A DNA stretch of 64,000 nucleotides from Beroe forskalii. Its lineage: Eukaryota; Ctenophora; Nuda; Beroida; Beroidae. A model generated the notes under the pieces. The model was not told the origin of the DNA. It worked only from the letters and a program-made list of their open reading frames with translations, and did not search any database. This document shows positions 9,001 to 48,255 of the stretch, piece after piece. A program made the position numbers and the translations under genes. Location: assembly GCA_011033025.1 (NCBI GenBank), contig WFMF01000075.1, positions 310,001 to 374,000 of the forward strand, in the 5' to 3' direction. The stretch's first letter is position 1. Each line of letters opens with the position of its first letter.

Positions 9001-12000
9001 AAGATGGTAGATATATCCATCATCACCACTCACTCTCTACCTCTCTCTCTCAAATGTTAAACCCTCGCTGATGTTTGTGTGACTCAATGAGTGTAGGTGT
9101 TCCTTTATCAACGAGCCCTACAATAATAATAATAGCAGTACTCTCTACAACACTGTGACAGCTACAGACATGATTCTTCTCTCTGTGTCATAGACAGCTC
9201 CTTCCGTCAATCTCTCTTTCTTTGTGACGATAACTGGGAGAAGAGAGAGAGACAAACCCAGATAACAATGGAAGAATGGAGTTCAACTTCCCTGTGCCCT
9301 GCTGACGTACATCCTACAAACGATTTATCATATTATAGATTCTTGATATATAGGTCATGTTTTGTACTGCTTCGTGACAGTCATGACAGAGTGCATAGCA
9401 TCCCCTAATTCTCTGATTGCAGGATGTCGCGATTGTAATGCAACTGTTCCATTTCAATAGCTGCATTCTGGGGCGTACGACTTTTAACCCCTTACGACAC
9501 TATATCTCTCTGTCCGAACTCCGAAACCTTGAACCAAACGCAAACCTGAACCATACCCAAACCTTTCTGTCGAAGTGAAATTAATAGATAGTGTCGTGAG
9601 GTAATTTCTTGAGAGGTGAAACGTCCATTTCCCACATTGCACTTAAGCAACTAGGTATTCTCGGGATTAAAGTTAAAGGATTCCCAGTATTGGAAGAACT
9701 TTAAATTGATGGTGACGAATGTGTTTAAATTATTCTTTCCTGTATGTGGTGGTCTTTTATTCAAATCGCACTACTGTGTCTGGGCTGGATGGTTCCAGCC
9801 TAAAGGTCCGATCTACGATCTCCTGACAATAATCCCGCCAACAGTTACTTTTAGCTTACCCTTATTCCAATCCTCGGGGTGGAGAGTCGTATATGCCTTT
9901 ATTTTGAGGGGTGTTTTGTACGGGGGAAATTTTGTCCGTTCACTATCAGAGACCAGACATTCTCCAATGCTTCTATGTAATGGGATTTAACTGCATTCAG
10001 AGCTTCTACCAGACTTAAGTGAGAACTCACTATTGCAGTCTGGGTCCGCTGGATGATTTCATGCAGAACTAATATCGAATGAATGAGACTAAGAGATTGC
10101 AGGAATCGTTTAAGTTTATCTAAAACTCAAATAGAGGCATTTAAGATAGAGGATGGTGTTTTTAAGGCGTGATTCAAGAGGATGATCGATTAATTTAAAA
10201 GTTAGTGAATGGATAGTGGGTTTTGTGATATCCACATTGTAGGTTCCTAGAAATATCTTATTCCAGCTAAGGTTAATGTATCATGCACCAGCCGATAGAA
10301 AACAGATAATTTAAGTCTTTACGACGAATTTTTCTTATCGATATAACATTTTAATTTTTAACGCTATTTCCATTTTTCATTTTTTTAAATATCAACCGGT
10401 AAATTGAGCGATCCGTCTAGGTCAGTATCACGCCAGTATCGCGTGGCAACTTGGTACTCTGCCGACGGAGGGTCACGGACCCTTCACGGACCCTTGATGG
10501 TTCCTTGGCTGAGGCCTGCAACGGCTTGAAACAACATAATGACCGGTTCAGTGAAGTAGTTAAAGACCCCCTAAGTCCAAATCCGACGAGACCTATTTTT
10601 GTTAGGTGGTGCATCATGGCGCAATTCCGCCATTTTGGCGCCATGGCGCCCAAAATACTAACTTTTGATAGGAAGGTCGTAGAGACTCCACTTTTAGCTT
10701 AAAAGAACCGCAATGGCCATGTTTATATACGACTTGTTAATAAACATATGCCCTAAAATGCTCACAAACCAAGTTATGGGCCAAAACTGTTTTGAGGCTA
10801 TGCGCGAGCTAAAATTTGGCGATTTTTCATAACTTCATGCGCCAGAAACGTCGTAGAGACTTCGTTCATAGCTCAAAAGAATTGCAATGGTCATGTTTAT
10901 ATACGACTTGTCAATAAACATAATATGCTCTAAACCCTTTACTTTTTGAGTTATGAAGCAAAAGCCGTTTTTGGGGGATGCGCAAGGACAAAATGTCATA
11001 TATAATGGTCCAAGCACACCAACCAATTCAATTCTGATGTTCGGTTTATACATGTCTCGTCATTAATGGGTTCAAATGGGAAAAACTGGGAACTAGAGTG
11101 AGAAGATGATTTCCCCCAAACCGGGATGTAAGTTTTTTTTTGGCATCTCGACGTGGCATAAAAGCATAAATTGGTCCAGAATTGGTTGAAATCTTGAAAA
11201 GTTGTAAAATTGCTGATTCCCTGCCATTTTGGTCGATGTTGGTGGTTTACTGCACTCCAGTCCATGAAATTCATGTTATAATCTAATTTCGACCAATAAA
11301 TAGGTAATAAGAAGAACATGAGAATTGGTCTGATCGAAAAATATCAATGTATTCCCATATTGAGAACAAAAAACCACAAAAATTTAAACACATCATACTA
11401 TATCTCGTCGAAATTGATCCACTTCAAACTATATCTCAGCTTAGGAAAGTGCTACTGAATTGGTATATCAGATCACACCTGTCATCAGAACACACCAGTG
11501 ATCCTCTACAGTTGTGCAGACCTGCATCCCCGACACCAGTCCCCGAGAAAGTCATTTATCAGCTGTTAAACCAGGTATCCCTGACATTACTATGCCAGAC
11601 TTGGCATACTTCTATACTTGACAATCTATACTTGACTGGCCACATCAGTTAATCAGTAAGTGAAGCCTGAAATCCTCGATACCAGAGAGTCAGACCTGGT
11701 ATCCCTGACACCAGTACTTCAGTACCTCAGCGGTCAGACCAGTTATCCCTGAGACCAGTCTTTCAGTTTCAGACCATGTATCTATATTCTATATCCCTGA
11801 TAGCAGTTCATAAGAACAAGTATCCTGGAAAGTTCATAGTTCATACACTTAGTAAGACCTGATATCGCAGACAGCAGTTTTTCTAGGAAGCCAATACTTG
11901 CTATGCAGTTGAAGCTTTGGGGCGTCGGCAGTCTGACAGAGATGTGTGGTCCAGATCTGGCTCTCTACCCTCATCTCTGGATATACAGTATACACGGCAG

Positions 12001-15000
12001 TCGAGTAGCTCTGCCAATTCATGAGAGCACGACTTTCGGCCTAGCGTACACTGTACAGGGCCTCTATCCTTTGCATGACTGCCACCTGGCATGGTCGATA
12101 AAAGCAACTTCCACTCATAAATCACCCCAATCAACTCACAACACACCCCTCTCAACTCATAACCCACCCCAATCAACTCATAACATACCCCTCTCAACTC
12201 ATAACCCACCCCAATCAACTCATAACATACCCCTCTCAACTCATAACCCACCGAAATCAACTCATAACATACCCCTATCAACTCATAACATACCCCTCTC
12301 AACTCACAACATACCCCTCTCAACTCATAACATACCCCTATCAACTCATAACATACCCCTCTCAACTCATAACATACCCCTCTCAACTCATAACCCACCG
12401 AAATCAACTCATAACTCACCCCTTTCCACACAATATAACCCACCCTTATCAACTCATAACCCACCTCTCTGCACTCATTTCTCACCCCAATCAATCTGGG
12501 GTTCTGTTGAGAAACACACTTTTGTATATACCAACATTTGACACAATAGCTGTTTGGACTGAACGGAACCTCTTAGCTTCAGTTCCTTGTTTAACATGCC
12601 ATTCAGCAACTCATAACACACCCCTTTTCACTCTTAACACACCCCTCTCCACTCATAACTCACCCCGATCAACTCATAACCCACCCAATCAACTCATATT
12701 CCACCCAATCAACTCATACCCCACCCCAATCAACTAATCAACTTATAACCCACCCCAATCAACTCATAACCCACCCCAATCCACTTATAACCAACCCCAA
12801 TCAACACATATGCAATATGCATAACACACCCAAATCAACACATAACCCTCCCCAATCAACTCATAACACACCCCTCTCAACTCATAGCTCACCCAAATCA
12901 ACTGATAACCCACCCCTTTCCACTCATAACCCACCCGAGTCAACTGATAACCCACCCCAATCCCCTCATAACCCACCCCAATCAACTCATAAGCCACCCC
13001 TTTCCACTCATAACCCTCCCCAATCAACTCATAACACACCCCTTTCAACTCATAACCCACCCGAATCAACTCATAACCCACCCCTTTCCACTCATAACCC
13101 ACCCCAATCAACCCATAACCCGCCCCTCTCCACTCATAACCTGCCCCTCTCCATTCATAACCCACCCCTCTTCACTCGTAACACACACCTTTCCACTCAT
13201 AACCCACCCTCTCCACTTATAACCCACACCTGAACAACCCTCCCGTACTTCCAGAGAAACCCCTTGGCTGCCAGAGAACCCCCCTGGCTCTTCAAGTAAC
13301 CTTTTCCCTAACTTTTCGAGCATTTCCCTTGATTTTTAAGCAATATCACAACTTTTGGACCTTTTCCCAATGTTAAGGGAATCCCTCATTTCGGCATACG
13401 GCTCACTGATCGCTTTTATCGACCATGCCAGGTGGCAGTCATGCAAAGGATAGAGGCCCTGTACAGTGTACGCTAGGCCGAAAGTCGTGCTCTCATGAAT
13501 TGGCAGAGCTACTCGACTGCCGTGTATATCCAGAGATGAGGGTAGAGAGCAAGATCTGGACCACACATCTCTTTCAGACTGCGGATGCCCCAAATCTTCA
13601 ACTGCATAGCAAGTATTGGCTTCCTAGAAAAAAACTACTGTCTGCAATATCACTTCTTACTAAGGGTATGAACTTTCCAGGATACCTGTTCTTATGAACT
13701 GCTATCAGGGATATAGAATATAGATAAATGGTCTGAAACTGAAAGACTGGTCTCAGGGATAACTGGTCTGACCGCTGAGGTACTGAAGTACTGGTGTCAG
13801 GGATACCAGGTCTGACTCTCTGGTATCGAGGATTTCAGGCTTCACTTACTGATGAACTGATGTGGCCAGTCAAGTATAGATTGTCAAGTATTATAGAAGT
13901 ATGCCAAGTCTGGCATAGTAATGTCAGGGATACCTGGTTTAACAGCTGATAAATGACTTTCTCGGGGACTGGTGTCGGGGATGCAGGTCTGCACAACTGT
14001 AGAGGATCACAGGTGTGATCTTGTTACAGGTGTGATCTGATATACCCATTCAGTAGCACTTTCCTGAGCCGAGATATAGTTTGAAGTGGATCAATTTCGG
14101 CGAGATATAGTATGATGTGTTTAAATTTTTGTGGTTTTTTGTTCTCAATATGGGAATCTCTTATATAATTTCGCAACCTCTGTTTTTCTGTTTGTCGTAA
14201 CGGCGGAAACATCTTCGGAACGCGCGCGCATTACGATTTGTGCGGGTAACCATGGTGACACGTGCACGGAGAATTGCGCGCGCGCTCATTTCTGTTAATG
14301 GTGTTTTGATTACGTTGCTTCGTAACTTTTGAACGGATCGGAGTTTTTTGATGCGGTAAAAAGCATTCAGCTGATCTGAAATTTGTGAACGAGGTACTGC
14401 GTAGCAGTGCCGAGTGAGCTGTGTATTAGCAGGCCCAACGGGCCTGCTAGTCTTACTTATAAAGTCGCAGATTGTGTATGTTTTTTGTACATCACGCCCC
14501 ATGGCAACGCGCGCGCAATGGGGGAAATGCACGTGCAGATTAATTGCGCGCGCGTTCATTTCTGTTTAATGTTGTTTTGAATACGTTGCTTCATAACTTT
14601 TGGTATGATTGGAATTTTTTGATGCGGTAAAAAGTATTTAGTTGATTTGAATTGTGGGGTTTGAAATTTGCGAACGAGGTGCTGCGTAGCAGCGCCGAGT
14701 GAGCTATGTATTTGCAGGCCCAACGGGCCTGCTAGTCTTACTTATAATTTCGCATTTCGTGTTTTTTCTCCGTACGTCACGCCCCATGGCAACGCGCGCG
14801 CAATGGGAAAAATGCACGTGCAAATTTATTGCGCGCGCGTTCATTTCGGTTTAATGCTGTTTTGATTTCGAAGCTTCATAACTTTTGATGTGATCGGAAT
14901 TTTTTGATGCGGTAAAAAGTATTTAGTTGATTTTAAATTTGCGAACGAGGTGCTGCGTAGCAGCGCCGAGTGAGCTGTGTATTTGCAGGCCCAACGGGCC

Positions 15001-18000
15001 TGCTAGTCTTACTTATAATTTCGCGCTTTCTGTATGTTTTCTGTACGTCACGCCCCATGGCAACGCGCACGCAATTGAGGAAATTGCACGTGCAGATTAA
15101 CTGCGCGCGCGTTCATTTCTGTTAGATGCTGTTTTGATTTCGGAGCTTCATAACTTTTGATGTGGTTGGAATTTTTTTATGCGGTAAAAAGTATTTGAAA
15201 TTTGCGAACGAGGTGCTGCGTAGCAGCGCCGAGTGAGCTGTGTATTTGCAGGCCCAACGGGCCTGCTAGTCTTACTTATAATTTCGCATTTCGTGTATGT
15301 TTTCTGTACGTCACGCCCCATGGCAACGCTCGCACAATGGGGGAAATGCACGTGCAGATTAACTGCGCGCGCGTTTAAAACTGTTTAATGCTGTTTTGAT
15401 TTCGGAGCTTCATAACTTTTGATGTGGTTGGAATTTTTTGATGCGGTAAAAAGTATTTAGTTGATTTGAAATTTGCGAACGAGGTGCTGCGTAGCAGCGC
15501 CGAGTGAGCAGTGTATTTGCAGGCCCAACGGGCCTGCTACTAATATAGATTTTACTGACCGCTATCAAAGTGACAAACGTAACTTCAAATAAATTGTCGT
15601 CTTTGCAGTTCTAATAATACCTTCAGTGAAACGCTAAAAATCTTCCGTACGTAAAGAAGCAGGTATCTTTGAACAAAAGTCTCAATTTAAATTCAATCAT
15701 GATTACAGTTGGAGAGCGTTGTGGCAAAGGCGGGTAATACAAAGAAGAAGGAAAAGGATATGATGTCTCATTGTGTATCCAACCCAATCAAAAAAGGATA
15801 CTGTAGTATTTGCTGCATATTATGCATAGCATAGTATGCGTTTTTATCAAAGAATGCGTAGCGTAATACCGTCAAAAATCGCACGTTCGTGTCGGATAGG
15901 TCCATTATTCGAAACTACAAGCTTACAAGCTCCAGTGAGCTTTTTTTAATTGTCCCACGAGCAATTCTTGGTTTTCTCCGTGATGTTTCGTTACTTTGCA
16001 TGGTCATGCACGATGCTTTTAGTCAATATTTTAGTTGTGCCACTAGATGCCGATGAAGAACAAGGTACAGCTGGGCCAGCTTCTACTAGGTTTGGAACGA
16101 CTGACTTTTTCACTTATGAAAATTTGGATGATGACGATTTAGAGATCAAACCAATTATTGGGACTGAAAAGACGGAACCCGTGTCAGGGAAGCACTCGAC
16201 AGATATCTTCTACCAAGGCAATTGTATTGACACGTCAGGCTCCTACGTACCTGTGACAGAACCAACATGCTTATTCGGAGTGCAGAACATGGCGGAGTGC
16301 TGGAAATATTGCCAACTGTCGGAGGGTTGCAGCATCTTCGTCTTCCAATTCATGAATTTCACTTGTGCTCTCCACCACAGTCCTTTAATTATAGAACCAA
16401 AGACATCATCCCAGATTTCTGGTCTGAATCAAGCAACCGGATATATGGATTGCTTGACATGTATGGAAACGATAAGTGATGTTTTGGCAACGCAAATCTT
16501 CAAAATTAGACGAGATAGAAAGTGTCTATCTAAAACTACCAAAGGAGCCGTAAACGCACAAAACATCACCGTGGGCTACAAATTGAAGTCACTTCCCTGT
16601 TCCAAAGCCGATCTCTGGAATGTCACTCTTTTCGACAATGCCACAAAGCATTCCGGAGGAAGAGATCAAGTAGTAGTTAGGATTTCCCTCCACGACAATC
16701 CACAATGGAGCATGGAGCACGGTATTTATAATACCTCTAACGAGCTTTCCGTGCAAGTGGCTTATTTGTCAAAGACAAAGAATGTGCCCGGTCAGAGAAT
16801 AGTAATGTCTAGAGATAATATGTCTGATCGCTGCACGTATTCACTGATAACTGAAGGCCCTCCAGTTCTCCTCCTTTTCACGTCCTTGCAAGAGCTGCCA
16901 TTTGACGATCTTGGTAAAAGCACATGGGGATTGAACTTCCATAAACCTGTCTCAGTACGGAAGTGTTTGCTCAAAGACCTCTCAGTGCAGAACGGCGAGA
17001 TAGTTAATGAGGGAAATGCCCCCTTCTTCGTGGAGGGGAGCATAGTGACCATCCTCTGTTATCCCGGCTTCCGGGTCCAGGGAAGCAACTCCTCTACCCG
17101 CCAACTGGTGACATGTGACGAGAGTGTCAATCCGAAGAGTTGTCTCAAGGATAAGTCTTTTCCTGATGTCTCAATTTACCTGGGTGTGATCGGTGTGCTG
17201 GCAGTGGCTCTCATGATCTGCTGTTACAACCTACCGTGGTCGTCTCTGTGTCGGAAAAGACAGCAAGTGAAGCCTCAAGTTGAAGCGCAAAGTGAAGAGC
17301 AAAGTGAAGCGCAAAGTGAAGTGCAAAGTGAAGCACCAATTGAAGCGCAAATTGAAGCACCAATTGAAGCGTGCAATTGAGGCGCCAATTGAAGCTCAAC
17401 AGATTTAAAAGTAAAAAGAAGCTCGTTATGGGCGACGAGGATGAATGACTCGTGTGTTTTACTCCATAATGGCTGATATGGTAAAGTCACACGTGAATAA
17501 TGTTTGTATGTGCCGCCGTACACAATTAAAAATTGAGCTTGCCAAGAACTTATCAAGAGAAACGAATGCAAAAGGGAGAAATGAGGCGCCGTTGCTATGG
17601 AAACTAATTTTTGCACGTACAGATTATAATCAGTTCTATGCGAGTGCTTTCTATTACGATTCTTCTGTTAAAAATGCTGTGCTGTAAATTTTGAAAATTT
17701 GACGTTTTCTTTTCTTCAAATTCAAATTTCAAGATGGAGAATGGACCTAATATAACTTGAATAACGGAGGATATTTTAGATGGATTGTTTTCTGTGGCAG
17801 AGTTTGGCAGATAATCAAAGCTGAGTCGGTGATAACAATAGTAACTTTAGTTTCGAAATTAGCCGTTTCGTTTAGTTTACAAAAGTGTACAATTCAATCG
17901 AGTCAAATATAGGTGTTAGCAGATTACGAAGACAGTTCCTGGCCTGGATTAATGTAAACAAAACAAAATGGTCCAATGTCAATATCAGTATGAGAATTAA

Positions 18001-21000
18001 CATACACTTCTTGCAATCAAAACGGAACTCTTGAACAAAACTCACATGGTTTAGCATAACTAACACTAACCGACGTCCTTCGATCTATTTTCCACTCTGC
18101 TCCTTCATAAAATTGAATAATGATTTAATAGATTTCGTTACGAATAACTTTTGATCTACTTGGGATTTTTGATGCGGTAAGAAGGTAAGAAGTATCCAAT
18201 CAATTTGAATGGTAGTTTTTAAAATTTGCGAACGAGGTGCTGCGTAACTATGTGACCTGTGTATATGCAGGCCCAACGGGCCAGCTAGTCTTACTTATAA
18301 TTTCGTAAAAGCACGTGAATAATGTATGTCTGTGCCGCCGTACACAATTAAATTTGAGCTTGCCAATAAAATATCAAGAGGAACGTAGGCTAAACCGGGC
18401 TAAGTCGCGCCATTGCTATGGATACAGGTATTCTGCACGTGCAGATTATAATTAGTTCTATGCGAATGCTTTCTGATACGTTGTTGACTGCTACGTTGTA
18501 GCGTTTTAAAGAACGACGAGTATACTGTTTTTCATTTGAAATTCAAGATCTGAAGATAGAAAACGGGTATGGCTGGCATCGTGGAGGCTATTTCCGATAA
18601 GATCTCTTCATAAATCTGTGGCAGACGTCGATCGATTTAAATCAATGCTGAGTAGTTGATATTTTTAACGGAAAAATTTAGAGCAATTTAAGATTGACCA
18701 AATCCAATTGACCAAAAGCAAAATCAAATTGGATCGAAAATTTGGCATAGCACATTGCGAATTTGGAAGACTGCTCTTGACGTGAATCAATGCTTAATTC
18801 AACGTTCAGTATGAGTGCGAAACTTGATTCTAATTTTCAGATGTAACTTCAACATATAAGCACAAATTATAATAATCAAAACTTGCCCGGTCCAACATAA
18901 CTAAAAGTAACCAACGAATTATTGTTAATTAAGCTCCTTCATAAACTTTTTGTGAGCTTATTATTTGGTTCTGTATTATCCAGCAGGCCCAACGGGCCTT
19001 TCTAGTACATTGATAATTTTCGATCAGACCAATTCTCATGTTCTTCTTATTACCTATTTTGTTGGTCGAAATTAGATTATAGCATGAATTTCATGGACTG
19101 GAGTGCAGTAAACCACCAACATCGACCAAAATGGCAGGGAATCAGCAATTTTACAACTTTTCAAGATTTCAACCAATTCTGGACAAATTTATGCTTTTAT
19201 GCCACGTCGAGATGCCAAAAACAACTTACATCCCGGTTTGGGGGAAATCATCTTCTCACTCTAGTTCCCAGTTTTTCCCATTTGAACCCATGAATGACGA
19301 GACATGTATAAACTGAACATAAGAATTGAATTGGTTGGTGTGCTTGGACCATTATATATGACATTTTGTCCTTGCGCATCCCCCAAAAACGGCTTTTGCT
19401 TCATAACTCGAAAAGTAAAGGGTTTAGAGCATATGTTTATTGACAAGTCGTATATAAACATGACCATTGCGATTCTTTTGAGCTATGAACGAAGTCTCTA
19501 CGACGTTTCTGGGTCAAGTTATGAAAAATCGCCAAATTTTAGCTTGCGCATAGCCTCAAAACAGTTTTTGGCCCATAACTTGGTTTGTGAGCATTTTAGG
19601 GCATATGTTTATTAACAAGTCGTATATAAACATGGCCATTGCAGTTCTTTTAAGCTAAAAGTGGAGTCTCTACGACCTTCCTATCAAAAGTTAGTAGTTT
19701 GGGCGCCATGGCGCCAAAATGGCGCAATTGCGCTATGATGCACCACCTAACAAAAATAGGTCTCGTCGGATTTGGACTTAGGGGGTCTTAAACTACCTCA
19801 CTGAACCGGTCATTATGTTGTTTCAAGCCGTTGCAGGCCTCAGACCTTAACTGACTAGACTATTTGACGGACCCTTCACAGTTCCTTGACGGACCTTCGC
19901 GCCAATATCTGGCCTACCTCACGGCAGTAAAGCGCCAGTAGCACGCTAGTAGCTCGCCACTCGCCAGTTGAAACTGACTCAAAGCCAGGACACCAGTATC
20001 AGATCATATACTGGCGTGTTACTGGCGTCCTGGCTAGTGTTAGTTTCGACTGGAGGGATACTGGCATGATACTGGCGTGCTACTGTCGTGACACAGACGT
20101 GGTACTGGCGTGCTACTGGCACGATAACAGCGTGAGGTAGGCCTGATACTGGCGCGATAACAGCGTGATGCTGGCCTAGACGGATCGCTTAATTTACCCA
20201 TCCCCCGACAACACATTTCTTGCCATATACAGGATGAGGTGGTTGACTTGTATTAAAATCATTGAACATATGCATATGAACTACTTGAGCTATTACTCAA
20301 ATACCCCGACAAGAGTAGTTATTGGTCGGCTGATATCATCGAGTGGCGAAGCCACGAGATGATATCAGCCGACCAATAACGCTCTTATTTTCCAACACGC
20401 AACAACTCTTAACCAATAGCAGTTCATTCATGTGCCCACATGGTACTGTCCTGTGATTGTACGTAATAATTTCGTGACCTTTTCGCGGCACATCTATTGG
20501 TGGTAGGCTAGATCACGTGATACGCATCATCATCGCACGTGACACAGTGTAATAGATACGGTGAGATACCCTGAGATATCTAACGGCTTAAGGAGCAGCT
20601 GCAATACGCAACAGACATGCCTCACAGATCTATATCGAAGGAAGTAGAATCATCTTTAATTTGAACTTTGTTGTAGTGCTGTTGTCTATTGTCTATAACA
20701 GGTTACCTCAGTACTTATAACTTATCAATGAGATTTTGGAAATGCGTTTTTTGGAATTTCTGTTCATTAAAAACTCCTGCTAATTAGTTATTAGTGCACA
20801 GGTCGCACGAATTAAGTGACGCACTTATTTACATAGTTGTTACACAGTACTATACGCACGTAACGAATTTTTAAACGGTGACGAATGTACGAATTTTTCA
20901 AAGCGCAGGGATAATTATAATTTTTCGTGAGATTATGTCTCAAAAGTCAAAATCAGGAAAAATTTTCGAAAGCGTGAATTTTGTTGTGATTTCATAAAAC

Positions 21001-46737: not shown

Positions 46738-48255
46738 ATGTCAAACCTCACAAAGTTCTTCCCCCTTGAGAGCACCGACAAAGTAGTCGCAGCTTTCCTC
46801 ACCTCAACCGGTCTCTTCGGAGTTCCCGCCAACATTCTCTCCTGCTACTGCTTCTGGAGAACCCAGGTCCCCTGGCGGACCAACACCATCTACTTCAAGA
46901 CCGTCTACATGACCATAACAGTGGTGGACACCTTCATCTGCTTGTTCCAGCTGCCAGTCATCGAGAGCTTGCTGAACGGTCGACGGGGCAAGTTCTTCGG
47001 GGACACCTTCAACTGCAAGAGCTGGGTGGTCCTGTGGCGGTCCCTGATCATGACCTCGGTCTTCCTGGTGGCTCAACTGAGTGTTTCCCGCCTGGCGGTC
47101 CTCGCTAATCCCAGACTCCGGATCTCCTTCAGGTTCGTGTTCCTGCCTCCTATTGTCTTTGTGCTGGTGATGGTGGCAGTCTGCGTGACGCTCCTCCAGA
47201 ACTTCATTCAGATCGAGTACTTTCCCACCATCACTGCGTCGTGTATCTTTGTAGGCGGTGCAGGAGGGTTCAACTACACCCAAGCCTTCATGCTGCCCCT
47301 ACCCTTCCCTCAACCAGTTCTCCGAGCAGATATTATCAGCAATATCGTAGCATCTTGCTCACTCGGCTTGCCTTTCATACCCATAGCTATATCATTCGTT
47401 GCTTCAATAGTGTACCTGAACAGAGCTAAGAACTCCATCGTTCGAGCAGGCAAGAACTCGAATATCCACAGGTACGCAACTAACACCATCATATTCGTGA
47501 CCCTGATGTACCTGGTTTGTAACATTCCCACCGTGATATTCCTTGTGATCCGGGTCTACCGAACGGTCAGACTGATGGGGCAGTCGAGCATGACCCTCCA
47601 CGAGATCCACAGGGCGATAAACCCTACCTCTATCGACAAGTTCTACTTCAGGATGCTGGTGGAGGTGGGCAGTGTTGCCGTGAACAGCTCCCTTAACCCC
47701 GTCATATACCTCTGGAGAATAAGGTCCTTCAGAGAGGTTATTTTCGGGAAGGATAGGTCACTCGATGATAAGACTTTGCCCGATATTTCTCTTAGTCCTG
47801 CGGGGATGACAGCCATAAACCCCTCCACACTCAGCTCCAATTATGTGTCCCTTACACAAGTCCTTTCCAGGGAAGCTCAATTAATTAATGGAGAAGGACT
47901 TACGATCAGAAACATTAACACCTGTGATAAGGGGATTGATTGTGAAGACTCGATGGAGGAAGTATCAGCAGAGTGTCTTGATAAGACAGACCTTGAGAAG
48001 GAGGAGGAGATATTCAGTCCTCCGACCGAGTGGAGAGACAGTACGGACTCCCAACTCATGACCTTCAGACCACCAGTGGGGTGGAATGACGGGAACTGCA
48101 GTATGGACACGGCTGAAGTGGAGGCTGGGCAAGCCAAAATATGGGACACATTCGTGGCGTGCGTTGCCATGACGGACCAGCCAGATCGCCGACCTGTCTA
48201 CTTCAGGACTCGCAAGATCAGCAATCTGCGGTCAATAAGGTCCAATTCTGTATAA
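46738..48255 (+). CDS. orphan class A (rhodopsin-like) GPCR, intronless coding region
   Basis: 505 residues from ATG to TAA. TM1 about 16-40 (ANILS), TM2 about 54-78 with Asp64, TM3 about 97-121, TM4 about 133-155, TM5 about 196-226, TM6 about 247-272 (CNIP), TM7 about 303-326 with NPVIY at 320-324. Cys93 and Cys169 can form the TM3-ECL2 disulfide. NLT at 3-5 is a glycosylation site. The E/DRY position reads SRL (117-119). The last 175 residues form a long acidic tail. The overall pattern resembles the invertebrate peptide- or orphan-receptor radiation; I cannot assign a ligand. Codon use is GC-rich like the LGR exons, so it is a resident gene. Possible 5' UTR acceptors lie at 46697-46704 and near 46733. 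Confidence 0.93.
   Translation: MSNLTKFFPLESTDKVVAAFLTSTGLFGVPANILSCYCFWRTQVPWRTNTIYFKTVYMTITVVDTFICLFQLPVIESLLNGRRGKFFGDTFNCKSWVVLWRSLIMTSVFLVAQLSVSRLAVLANPRLRISFRFVFLPPIVFVLVMVAVCVTLLQNFIQIEYFPTITASCIFVGGAGGFNYTQAFMLPLPFPQPVLRADIISNIVASCSLGLPFIPIAISFVASIVYLNRAKNSIVRAGKNSNIHRYATNTIIFVTLMYLVCNIPTVIFLVIRVYRTVRLMGQSSMTLHEIHRAINPTSIDKFYFRMLVEVGSVAVNSSLNPVIYLWRIRSFREVIFGKDRSLDDKTLPDISLSPAGMTAINPSTLSSNYVSLTQVLSREAQLINGEGLTIRNINTCDKGIDCEDSMEEVSAECLDKTDLEKEEEIFSPPTEWRDSTDSQLMTFRPPVGWNDGNCSMDTAEVEAGQAKIWDTFVACVAMTDQPDRRPVYFRTRKISNLRSIRSNSV

Follow-up and report, generated by a model that had tools for sequence, protein, structure and literature searches.

A concatemer of non-autonomous Helitrons in Beroe forskalii very probably copied a complete, intronless gene for a PAN/sushi-like transmembrane receptor from a gene lineage present on C246, and then spread with it. 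One copy of the gene-bearing unit lies in the window, the 64,000-nucleotide stretch of DNA analysed here. Helitron gene capture is already known, and this case is unusually clean and well documented.

The composite insertion and its empty site

The insertion is composed of seven head-to-tail non-autonomous Helitron units and 1,943 bp of host DNA located at one monomer junction (Table 1). It begins with TC at 14157, ends with CTAG at 19002-19005, and is bordered by CAATATGGGAA on the left and TACATTG on the right. Like canonical Helitron1 non-autonomous elements (5' TC; 3' CTAG, within the CTRR consensus; GC-rich 3' hairpin), it is inserted between A and T without target-site duplication, and not between T and T as expected for Helentron or Helitron2. 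The sequence-only reading had described a Helitron starting with TC, ending in a hairpin and CTAG and sitting between A and T, with its empty site in cis near 11350. The first description holds to the base, and the empty site was found at 11351/11352. When the two flanks (200 bp each) were joined and compared with the opposite foldback arm, 385 of 398 aligned bases were identical and the join mapped to the A and T at this position. A single internal gap of 1 bp lies ~50 bp from the join, and there is none at the join itself. Foldback arm pieces I1-I7, I9, I11 and I12 are in register and 92–100% complementary, and the outermost piece, I13, is 87% complementary. Among the offsets tried, the best candidate for a target duplication at the foldback ends was a 3-bp match.

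Table 1. Features of the insertion and its target in the window
Feature	Position	Strand	Basis or remark
Host foldback element, insertion target of the Helitron	10509..19843	.	Arms present in many further genomic copies, frequently as opposed pairs
Empty target (between A and T), opposite foldback arm	11351..11352	.	Arm complementarity and joined-flank alignment
Complete Helitron composite of 4,849 bp (TC...CTAG) at an A-T step	14157..19005	+	Ends, flanks, empty-site alignment
Short non-autonomous Helitron monomer 1, TCTCTTATATAATTTCGC type	14157..14450	+	Sequence comparison
Short monomers 2-5 (14451-14735, 14736-15006, 15007-15269, 15270-15540)	14451..15540	+	Head to tail, CTAG joined to TC
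Putatively captured host DNA, 1,943 bp, extent common with C246 parent genes	15541..17483	+	Genome matches, junction comparison
Open 465-codon gene, intronless, with hydrophobic N-terminus, PAN-like and sushi-like regions, TM stretch and a short tail of repeats	15983..17380	+	
Longer "mid" type Helitron monomer	17484..18288	+	5' end without its first ~13-19 bases
Final Helitron monomer, source of the outer 3' end (hairpin, CTAG)	18289..19005	+	Sequence comparison, fold

The genome has 160 exact matches to the 18-mer at the 5' start (0 for the reversed-pattern control) and 1,135 to the 3' end GGCCCAACGGGCCTGCTAGT (control, 0). At least 425 of these 1,135 3' ends run directly into the 5' end of another monomer, and at 113 places in the genome a 3' end is joined straight to a mid-type 5' end. 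Among 12 scanned 5' ends that are free, that is, not joined to CTAG, 11 are preceded by A, one of them (L004:1501) immediately after a degraded 3' end; the exception, L004:2505, is preceded by T. The fifth short monomer (w5, 15270-15540) terminates in CTAC instead of CTAG. The monomer-end hairpin folds at -10.1 kcal/mol (z -4.55 against shuffles), with a stem that includes the C of CTAG. The outer-end hairpin is weaker (-5.8 kcal/mol, z -2.87, with an equally good fold in 2 of 200 shuffles), and its stem stops 2 bases before CTAG. The folded hairpins lie 3 or 6 bases from the 3' end, compared with a 16-20 nt palindrome ~11 bp from the end in canonical Helitron1, a distance also given in the available text of PMC4067079.

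None of the 20 matches to the Rep domain (PF14214) of the Rep/helicase transposase lies on C858, indicating that the window element is non-autonomous. The presence of the family 3' end beside Rep was examined for one of the 20 matches, that on C256, on its 3' side. On C256, the Rep match and a helicase-like frame share one register, and AGGCCCGACGGGCCTTCTAG followed by T lies ~0.86 kb downstream of the frame. Judged from this 3' side, mobilisation may depend on a RepHel like that on C256, with the family hairpin and CTAG before T downstream.

The block could in principle be single-copy host DNA lying between two unrelated solo Helitron insertions. No support for this arrangement was found, and it is extremely improbable. 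The empty site in cis is contiguous host DNA without any part of 14157-19005. The block, whose single-copy state had been set beforehand as the deciding sign, is multi-copy, and identical gene-Helitron junctions recur at two further loci, C624 and (right side) C858:241 kb, so that the left junction is common to two loci and the right junction to three. It is also very unlikely that the junctions are assembly artefacts, although a foldback with tandem repeats is difficult to assemble and the C624 copy carries many small length differences (48 gap runs over 3,668 aligned bases, versus 20 in the window row). The outer junctions coincide exactly with the Helitron ends and the A-T target, and the inner junctions recur on independent contigs.

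Origin of the carried gene

In the genome the parent lineage has five gene copies on C246, and C772 carries a distant paralogue. Similarity between the Helitron copies and these parents ends at 15541 and 17483, and the parents match each other beyond, with DNA common to the C246 and C772 genes continuing past both edges. As in a gene capture, the parent is therefore kept elsewhere and its homology extends past the captured block, which includes 442 bp ahead of the ATG and 103 bp past the stop codon. The sequence-only reading had suggested searching for a parent gene with introns; the parents were found, but as full-length open matches without introns. A full-length unspliced ORF in the Helitron consequently needs no special explanation.

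Phylogenetic analysis placed the three Helitron copies (window, C624 and C858b) apart from the five C246 copies on a branch with values of 100/99, and among these three the window copy sits almost at the root. The suggested search for other copies carrying the ORF was borne out by C624 and C858b, both of which are broken by stops. A one-base length change near the C-terminus, a frameshift relative to the parents, is common to all three. Part of the damage in C624 and C858b may come from assembly error. At C624, a repeat-filled stretch, itself after another CTAG, directly precedes the candidate boundary between A and T at 886, and a clean outer boundary is demonstrated only for the window copy of the gene-bearing unit. 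No present-day C246 gene is the direct donor: when 19 fixed differences were polarised, 13 proved to be derived in the C246 lineage.

Route of capture

A non-autonomous Helitron concatemer would have acquired the whole receptor gene and its upstream region by copying from the C246 lineage. Rolling-circle transposition would then have carried copies of the gene-bearing unit to further loci, including the site between A and T within the window foldback. For the capture itself, we favour filler-DNA repair or a template switch at a monomer junction (CTAG joined to TC) as the probable route. A C246-type gene would have served as template for the 1,943 bp filling a break or switch at this junction, and the final G and 13-16 bp of the following monomer would have been lost.

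A gene-free array on C110 has the same type of junction as the window, with a short monomer ending in GGGCCTGCTAG joined to TCTTATATATAAAGTAAAGTCACACGTG. Its second unit shares 91% identity over 792 bp with the window mid unit and includes GTAAAGTCACACGTG exactly where the gene joins in the window. Judged by this relative, the mid unit has lost 13-16 bases at its 5' end. GTA is present in both donor and acceptor at the right junction, and the left junction shows no microhomology and leaves one base (C) unaccounted for. The C110 array terminates at CTAG 1058638-1058641 with a reduced hairpin. A family gene near this array was considered as a second cargo and rejected, its frame (1059391-1060299) lying outside the array.

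The main alternative, bypass of the 3' end (read-through), is possible but clearly less probable. A short-monomer array would have inserted between A and T 442 bp upstream of a C246-type ATG and lost its terminal G (giving CTAC), and in a later transposition copying would have continued across the gene, as far as the 3' end of a Helitron lying downstream. The left junction, in which GGCCTGCTAC is joined to TAATATAG, is consistent with this, being a Helitron 3' end except for its last base, located at a parental A-T (TAATAA followed by TAATATAG in the parent) and identical in the window and C624. Experiments with Helraiser have also shown bypass, which with an intact element accounted for ~11.7% of events according to the available text of PMC4778049. 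However, the left-junction hairpin still folds, and the absence of the first ~13-16 bases from the downstream unit would require an additional deletion. The gene-free array on C110, with the same subtype junction, and the 113 junctions of a 3' end with a mid-type unit also argue against it, and among nine long block copies no C246-type gene has such a flanking array. The filler route or template switch is thus preferred.

The carried gene and its significance

By hydropathy, the N-terminus encoded by the carried gene is hydrophobic and residues 396-414 form a TM-like stretch. The PAN_1 (PF00024) match scores 18.3 bits, under the cut-off of 21.4, and is termed PAN-like; the Sushi match scores 14.4 bits, under the cut-off of 20.7. 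Among nine other family members scanned, PAN_1 is above the cut-off in four (L049, 24.8; L051, 31.0; L050, 31.6; and L056, 29.8 bits) and Sushi is at the cut-off (20.7 bits) in one. The proposed membrane-protein ORF stands, with its open frame and TM-like stretch; in this copy the PAN and sushi domains fall below threshold, and the N-terminus, read as a signal peptide from the letters alone, is hydrophobic. None of the 3,900 candidates from a protein database search with the ORF reached E ≤ 0.001, and a PDB sequence search gave two matches (E 0.57 and 0.64) that are not meaningful. Single-sequence structure prediction had a mean pLDDT of 32, too low for use. The window also holds LRR ORFs and a GPCR-like ORF scoring 28.3 bits (cut-off 30.5), features that suggest an animal genome.

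On sequence evidence, the carried copy appears young rather than demonstrably functional, and its youth would suffice to explain the open ORF without selection. The dN/dS values between the window copy and three open parents are 0.84, 1.28 and 1.28, giving no sign of purifying selection, and the fixed differences comprise 6 synonymous and 22 non-synonymous changes. The chance of zero stops is 0.49 after 15 random substitutions and 0.83 after 4, so that an open ORF is unsurprising. It is unlikely that the gene is functional and kept by selection as a new receptor paralogue dispersed by the Helitron. Its ORF is complete and accompanied by 442 bp of parental upstream DNA, and a C425 pair of the wider family has a dN/dS of 0.14, reflecting purifying selection and indicating that some family members, at least, are working genes. 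The dN/dS values of the window copy, the openness expected by chance, the stops in C624 and C858b and the C-terminal length change in all three copies nevertheless argue against it. The intact receptor ORF, regarded as unusual by the sequence-only reading, is indeed open and full-length, but its intactness reflects recency and not demonstrated function.

Tandem Helitron arrays in bat (Myotis) and silkworm are attributed to bypassed termination in the available part of PMC4067079; the window array is tandem like these, but mixes monomer types and carries a whole gene at a monomer junction. As described in part of PMC4778049, 3' transduction by Helraiser/Helibat and capture by HelibatN3 copied host DNA, including a promoter, to new loci, as here. 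The HelibatN3 cargo, however, comprises a promoter, six codons and a splice donor, compared with an entire coding sequence in the window. HELPO1 Helitrons of Pleurotus ostreatus, with cap genes, also contain full-length genes. By the portion of PMC4289320 available, the origin of those genes is unknown and expression of some is high, whereas for the window gene the parent lineage is identified. For Sfru_Hel1A of Spodoptera frugiperda, filler-DNA repair was inferred from junctions with source loci (PMC6544945, available part); the window capture differs in that the gene is complete and lies where two tandem monomers meet.

One assembly keeps nearly all the pieces of a capture, namely the parent lineage, both junctions, a gene-free array, two descendants and the empty site in cis, and the window junctions inform the choice between filler-DNA repair and 3'-end read-through. 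A broader and unlikely proposal is that Helitron arrays in this genome disperse a large intronless receptor family, a process that would be seen in action in the window copy. As such genes need no splicing, a promoter and a working gene could be copied together in one filler-DNA event. The C246 lineage, in which dN/dS between copies is around or above 1, would thereby reach new loci and provide raw material from which receptors could diversify. If the window gene is expressed, a Helitron would have delivered a whole receptor gene.

Composite insertion and its host repeat

The insertion lies on contig C858 of the 216-Mb Beroe forskalii assembly and consists of seven head-to-tail Helitron units, with the gene sitting between the fifth and the sixth. 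When the flanks were joined without the insertion and aligned to the opposite arm of the surrounding foldback, 385 of 398 bases were identical. In that arm the join corresponds to the A|T of 11351/11352, the empty target site, and this bears out the proposal of the sequence-only reading that this site is preserved in cis; its account of the insertion and the carried gene was likewise real and correctly read. The foldback arm has at least 47 matches in the genome (40 of 1,729 candidates scored), many of them oppositely oriented pairs, some 3–5 kb apart. The arm is thus itself repetitive, and the Helitron is nested within an older repeat. This multi-copy foldback is large, with long inverted arms and a core of 21-bp tandem repeats; no obvious target duplication was found at its ends.

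Features of the composite insertion and the encoded protein
Feature	Position	Description
Foldback element	about 10509–19843	hosts the Helitron in one arm
Composite Helitron insertion	14157–19005	form A|TC...CTAG|T, boundaries precise
Five short Helitron units		294, 285, 271, 263 and 271 bp
Sixth unit	17484–18288	longer, 5'-truncated
Seventh (last) unit	18289–19005	
Encoded protein	15983–17380	465 codons; N to C: hydrophobic N-terminus, PAN-like, conserved cysteine-containing middle, sushi-like, TM-like, repetitive acidic tail
TM-like stretch	residues 396–414	

Helitron arrays are normal in this genome, where at least 425 of 1,135 exact 3' ends lead directly to another 5' end. Tandem arrays have been described from bat and silkworm (PMC4067079); for tandem insertions the published hosts include bat, Drosophila, rice and maize (PMC5148889). 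At the eight loci from the 5'-end search together with the window, contig C624 and C858:236–246 kb, A precedes 11 of the 12 5' ends unattached to CTAG. The exception, with T before it, is L004:2505; among the 11, L004:1501 stands directly after a degraded 3' end. Folding of the 3' hairpin gave z scores of -4.55 for the monomer and -2.87 for the outer end. The hairpin lies nearer the element end than the distance of about 11 bp described for canonical Helitrons (PMC4067079).

Captured gene and donor lineage

The DNA at 15541–17483 is not Helitron. A genome search with this block retrieved nine long copies, located in the window, on C246 (five), C624, C858:241 kb (C858b) and C772 (72%), contradicting the alternative, raised in the sequence-only reading, that the 15541–17480 block is single-copy. 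The C246 and C772 copies have common DNA past both block edges (about 267 bp each side for C246a and C772). The window and C624 diverge from the C246 sequence at identical bases on the left and right, and C858b, whose 5' end is cut off, leaves it at the same base on the right. Because homology continues past both edges in C246 and C772 and the Helitron copies stop there, we infer that C246 represents the donor lineage and that the block is the captured piece. A parent lineage was thus found, but not the introns expected of it: the PAN/sushi family looks intronless, since its better matches are mostly single unbroken frames of about 400–550 codons.

A genome search for the family, in which 91 of 163 candidates were scored, gave at least 97 matches. 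Among nine other members scanned, PAN_1 exceeded the Pfam cut-off in four and Sushi reached it exactly in one. No relative was found when the protein collection was searched with the ORF, and a literature search for an intronless PAN/sushi family found no paper. Elsewhere in the window, an open frame of 505 codons (46738–48255) has, by eye, the look of a seven-helix receptor; its Pfam scan gave no significant match.

Compared with the three open C246 copies, the ORF shows 19 polarised fixed differences, 13 derived on the C246 side and six on the Helitron side (nine further ones were unpolarisable, and gapped codons were omitted). Because most are derived on the C246 side, the direct donor was an ancestor or lost sister of the present C246 genes. 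In the tree, a 100/99 branch parts the five C246 copies from the three Helitron copies and the window's terminal branch is only 0.0014; the remaining inner branches are weakly supported (one of six starred). The parent cluster (C246:16494–34285 and 126671–128555) holds three open and two broken copies in both orientations; downstream there are tandem repeats with a unit of about 175 bp.

Junctions and route of capture

At the left junction, GGCCTGCTAC|TAATATAG, a Helitron 3' end whose final G has become C stands against the parental TAATAA|TAATATAG. At the right junction, parental GATATGGTA is joined to a Helitron without its first bases. A gene-free array on contig C110 contains the junction GGGCCTGCTAG|TCTTATATATAAAGTAAAGTCACACGTG, whose second unit shares 91% identity with its counterpart in the window across 792 bp, and this may be what the acceptor looked like. 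Relative to it, the gene would substitute for the last G and 13–16 bases of the next monomer, and donor and acceptor both have GTA there. A 3' end is joined directly to a 5' end of the longer, mid type at 113 genome sites, counting any upstream monomer type.

Two capture models have been published, end bypass and filler DNA (PMC6544945, PMC4778049). The left junction coincides with both an A|T step and a Helitron end, as entry by end bypass would have it. Filler DNA or template switching is favoured by the gene-free monomer junction, which appears to have pre-existed, and by the small loss; we rank bypass lower, as rather unlikely, and consider entry by filler DNA the somewhat more probable route.

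The C110 array (C110:1056500–1060300) comprises at least five Helitron units, including the gene-free short|mid junction of the window's subtype. It terminates in a reduced hairpin, GCAGGCCCGCTAG, and a PAN/sushi family frame lies some 750 bp beyond. On contig C226, a 3' end of this Helitron family (251772–251793, +) stands about 130 bp from a PAN/sushi gene (251925–252944, -), the kind of neighbourhood where bypass capture could start.

Mobility and coding state

All three Helitron copies (window, C624, C858b) have the right junction in common, and the window and C624 have the left one in common too. The outer monomers of the window and C624 differ. Shared inner junctions with differing outer monomers indicate that the gene-bearing unit was copied more than once. 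The fifth short monomer of the window is 94.9% identical to its C624 counterpart, and monomers 2–4 are 74.5–80.8% identical to theirs. At C624:1–9500, the gene copy and monomers bear many clustered small indels, reflecting decay or assembly error.

The genome contains 20 Rep-domain matches, and a Rep-bearing element is a possible source of the transposase. At the one locus whose downstream DNA was examined, on contig C256, a frame in register with a Rep match ends in a tail judged helicase-like by eye, and AGGCCCGACGGGCCTTCTAG|T stands about 0.86 kb beyond this frame. Rep-domain frames of 2,871 and 2,814 codons (C1099:13833 and C432:166483) are possibly Helentron-type, a guess from their length.

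Both the C624 and C858b gene copies are broken. An open frame of 506 codons is present in C772, although its matched stretch was scored with two stops. Relative to the parents, the window, C624 and C858b all have a single additional base close to the end of the tail, and the last residues are thereby replaced. The dN/dS of the window gene against the three open parents is 0.84, 1.28 and 1.28. Values of 1.41–2.09 between the open C246 parents (few changes) suggest relaxed or diversifying evolution; a C425 pair in the wider family gave 0.14. Fixed differences between window and parents comprise six synonymous and 22 non-synonymous changes, of which one and three, respectively, are absent from C624/C858b, partly owing to gaps there. 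Random substitutions create a stop in 4.6% of cases, and the frame stays open after 15 of them about half the time, in a model of substitutions alone. The carried gene is intact, and these comparisons give no sign that the host makes use of it.

Helitrons containing full-length genes, some highly expressed, have been described in Pleurotus (PMC4289320). In the open-licence literature consulted, we found no animal Helitron described as carrying a complete receptor gene whose parent is known. The present case is ordinary in kind and exceptional in completeness.
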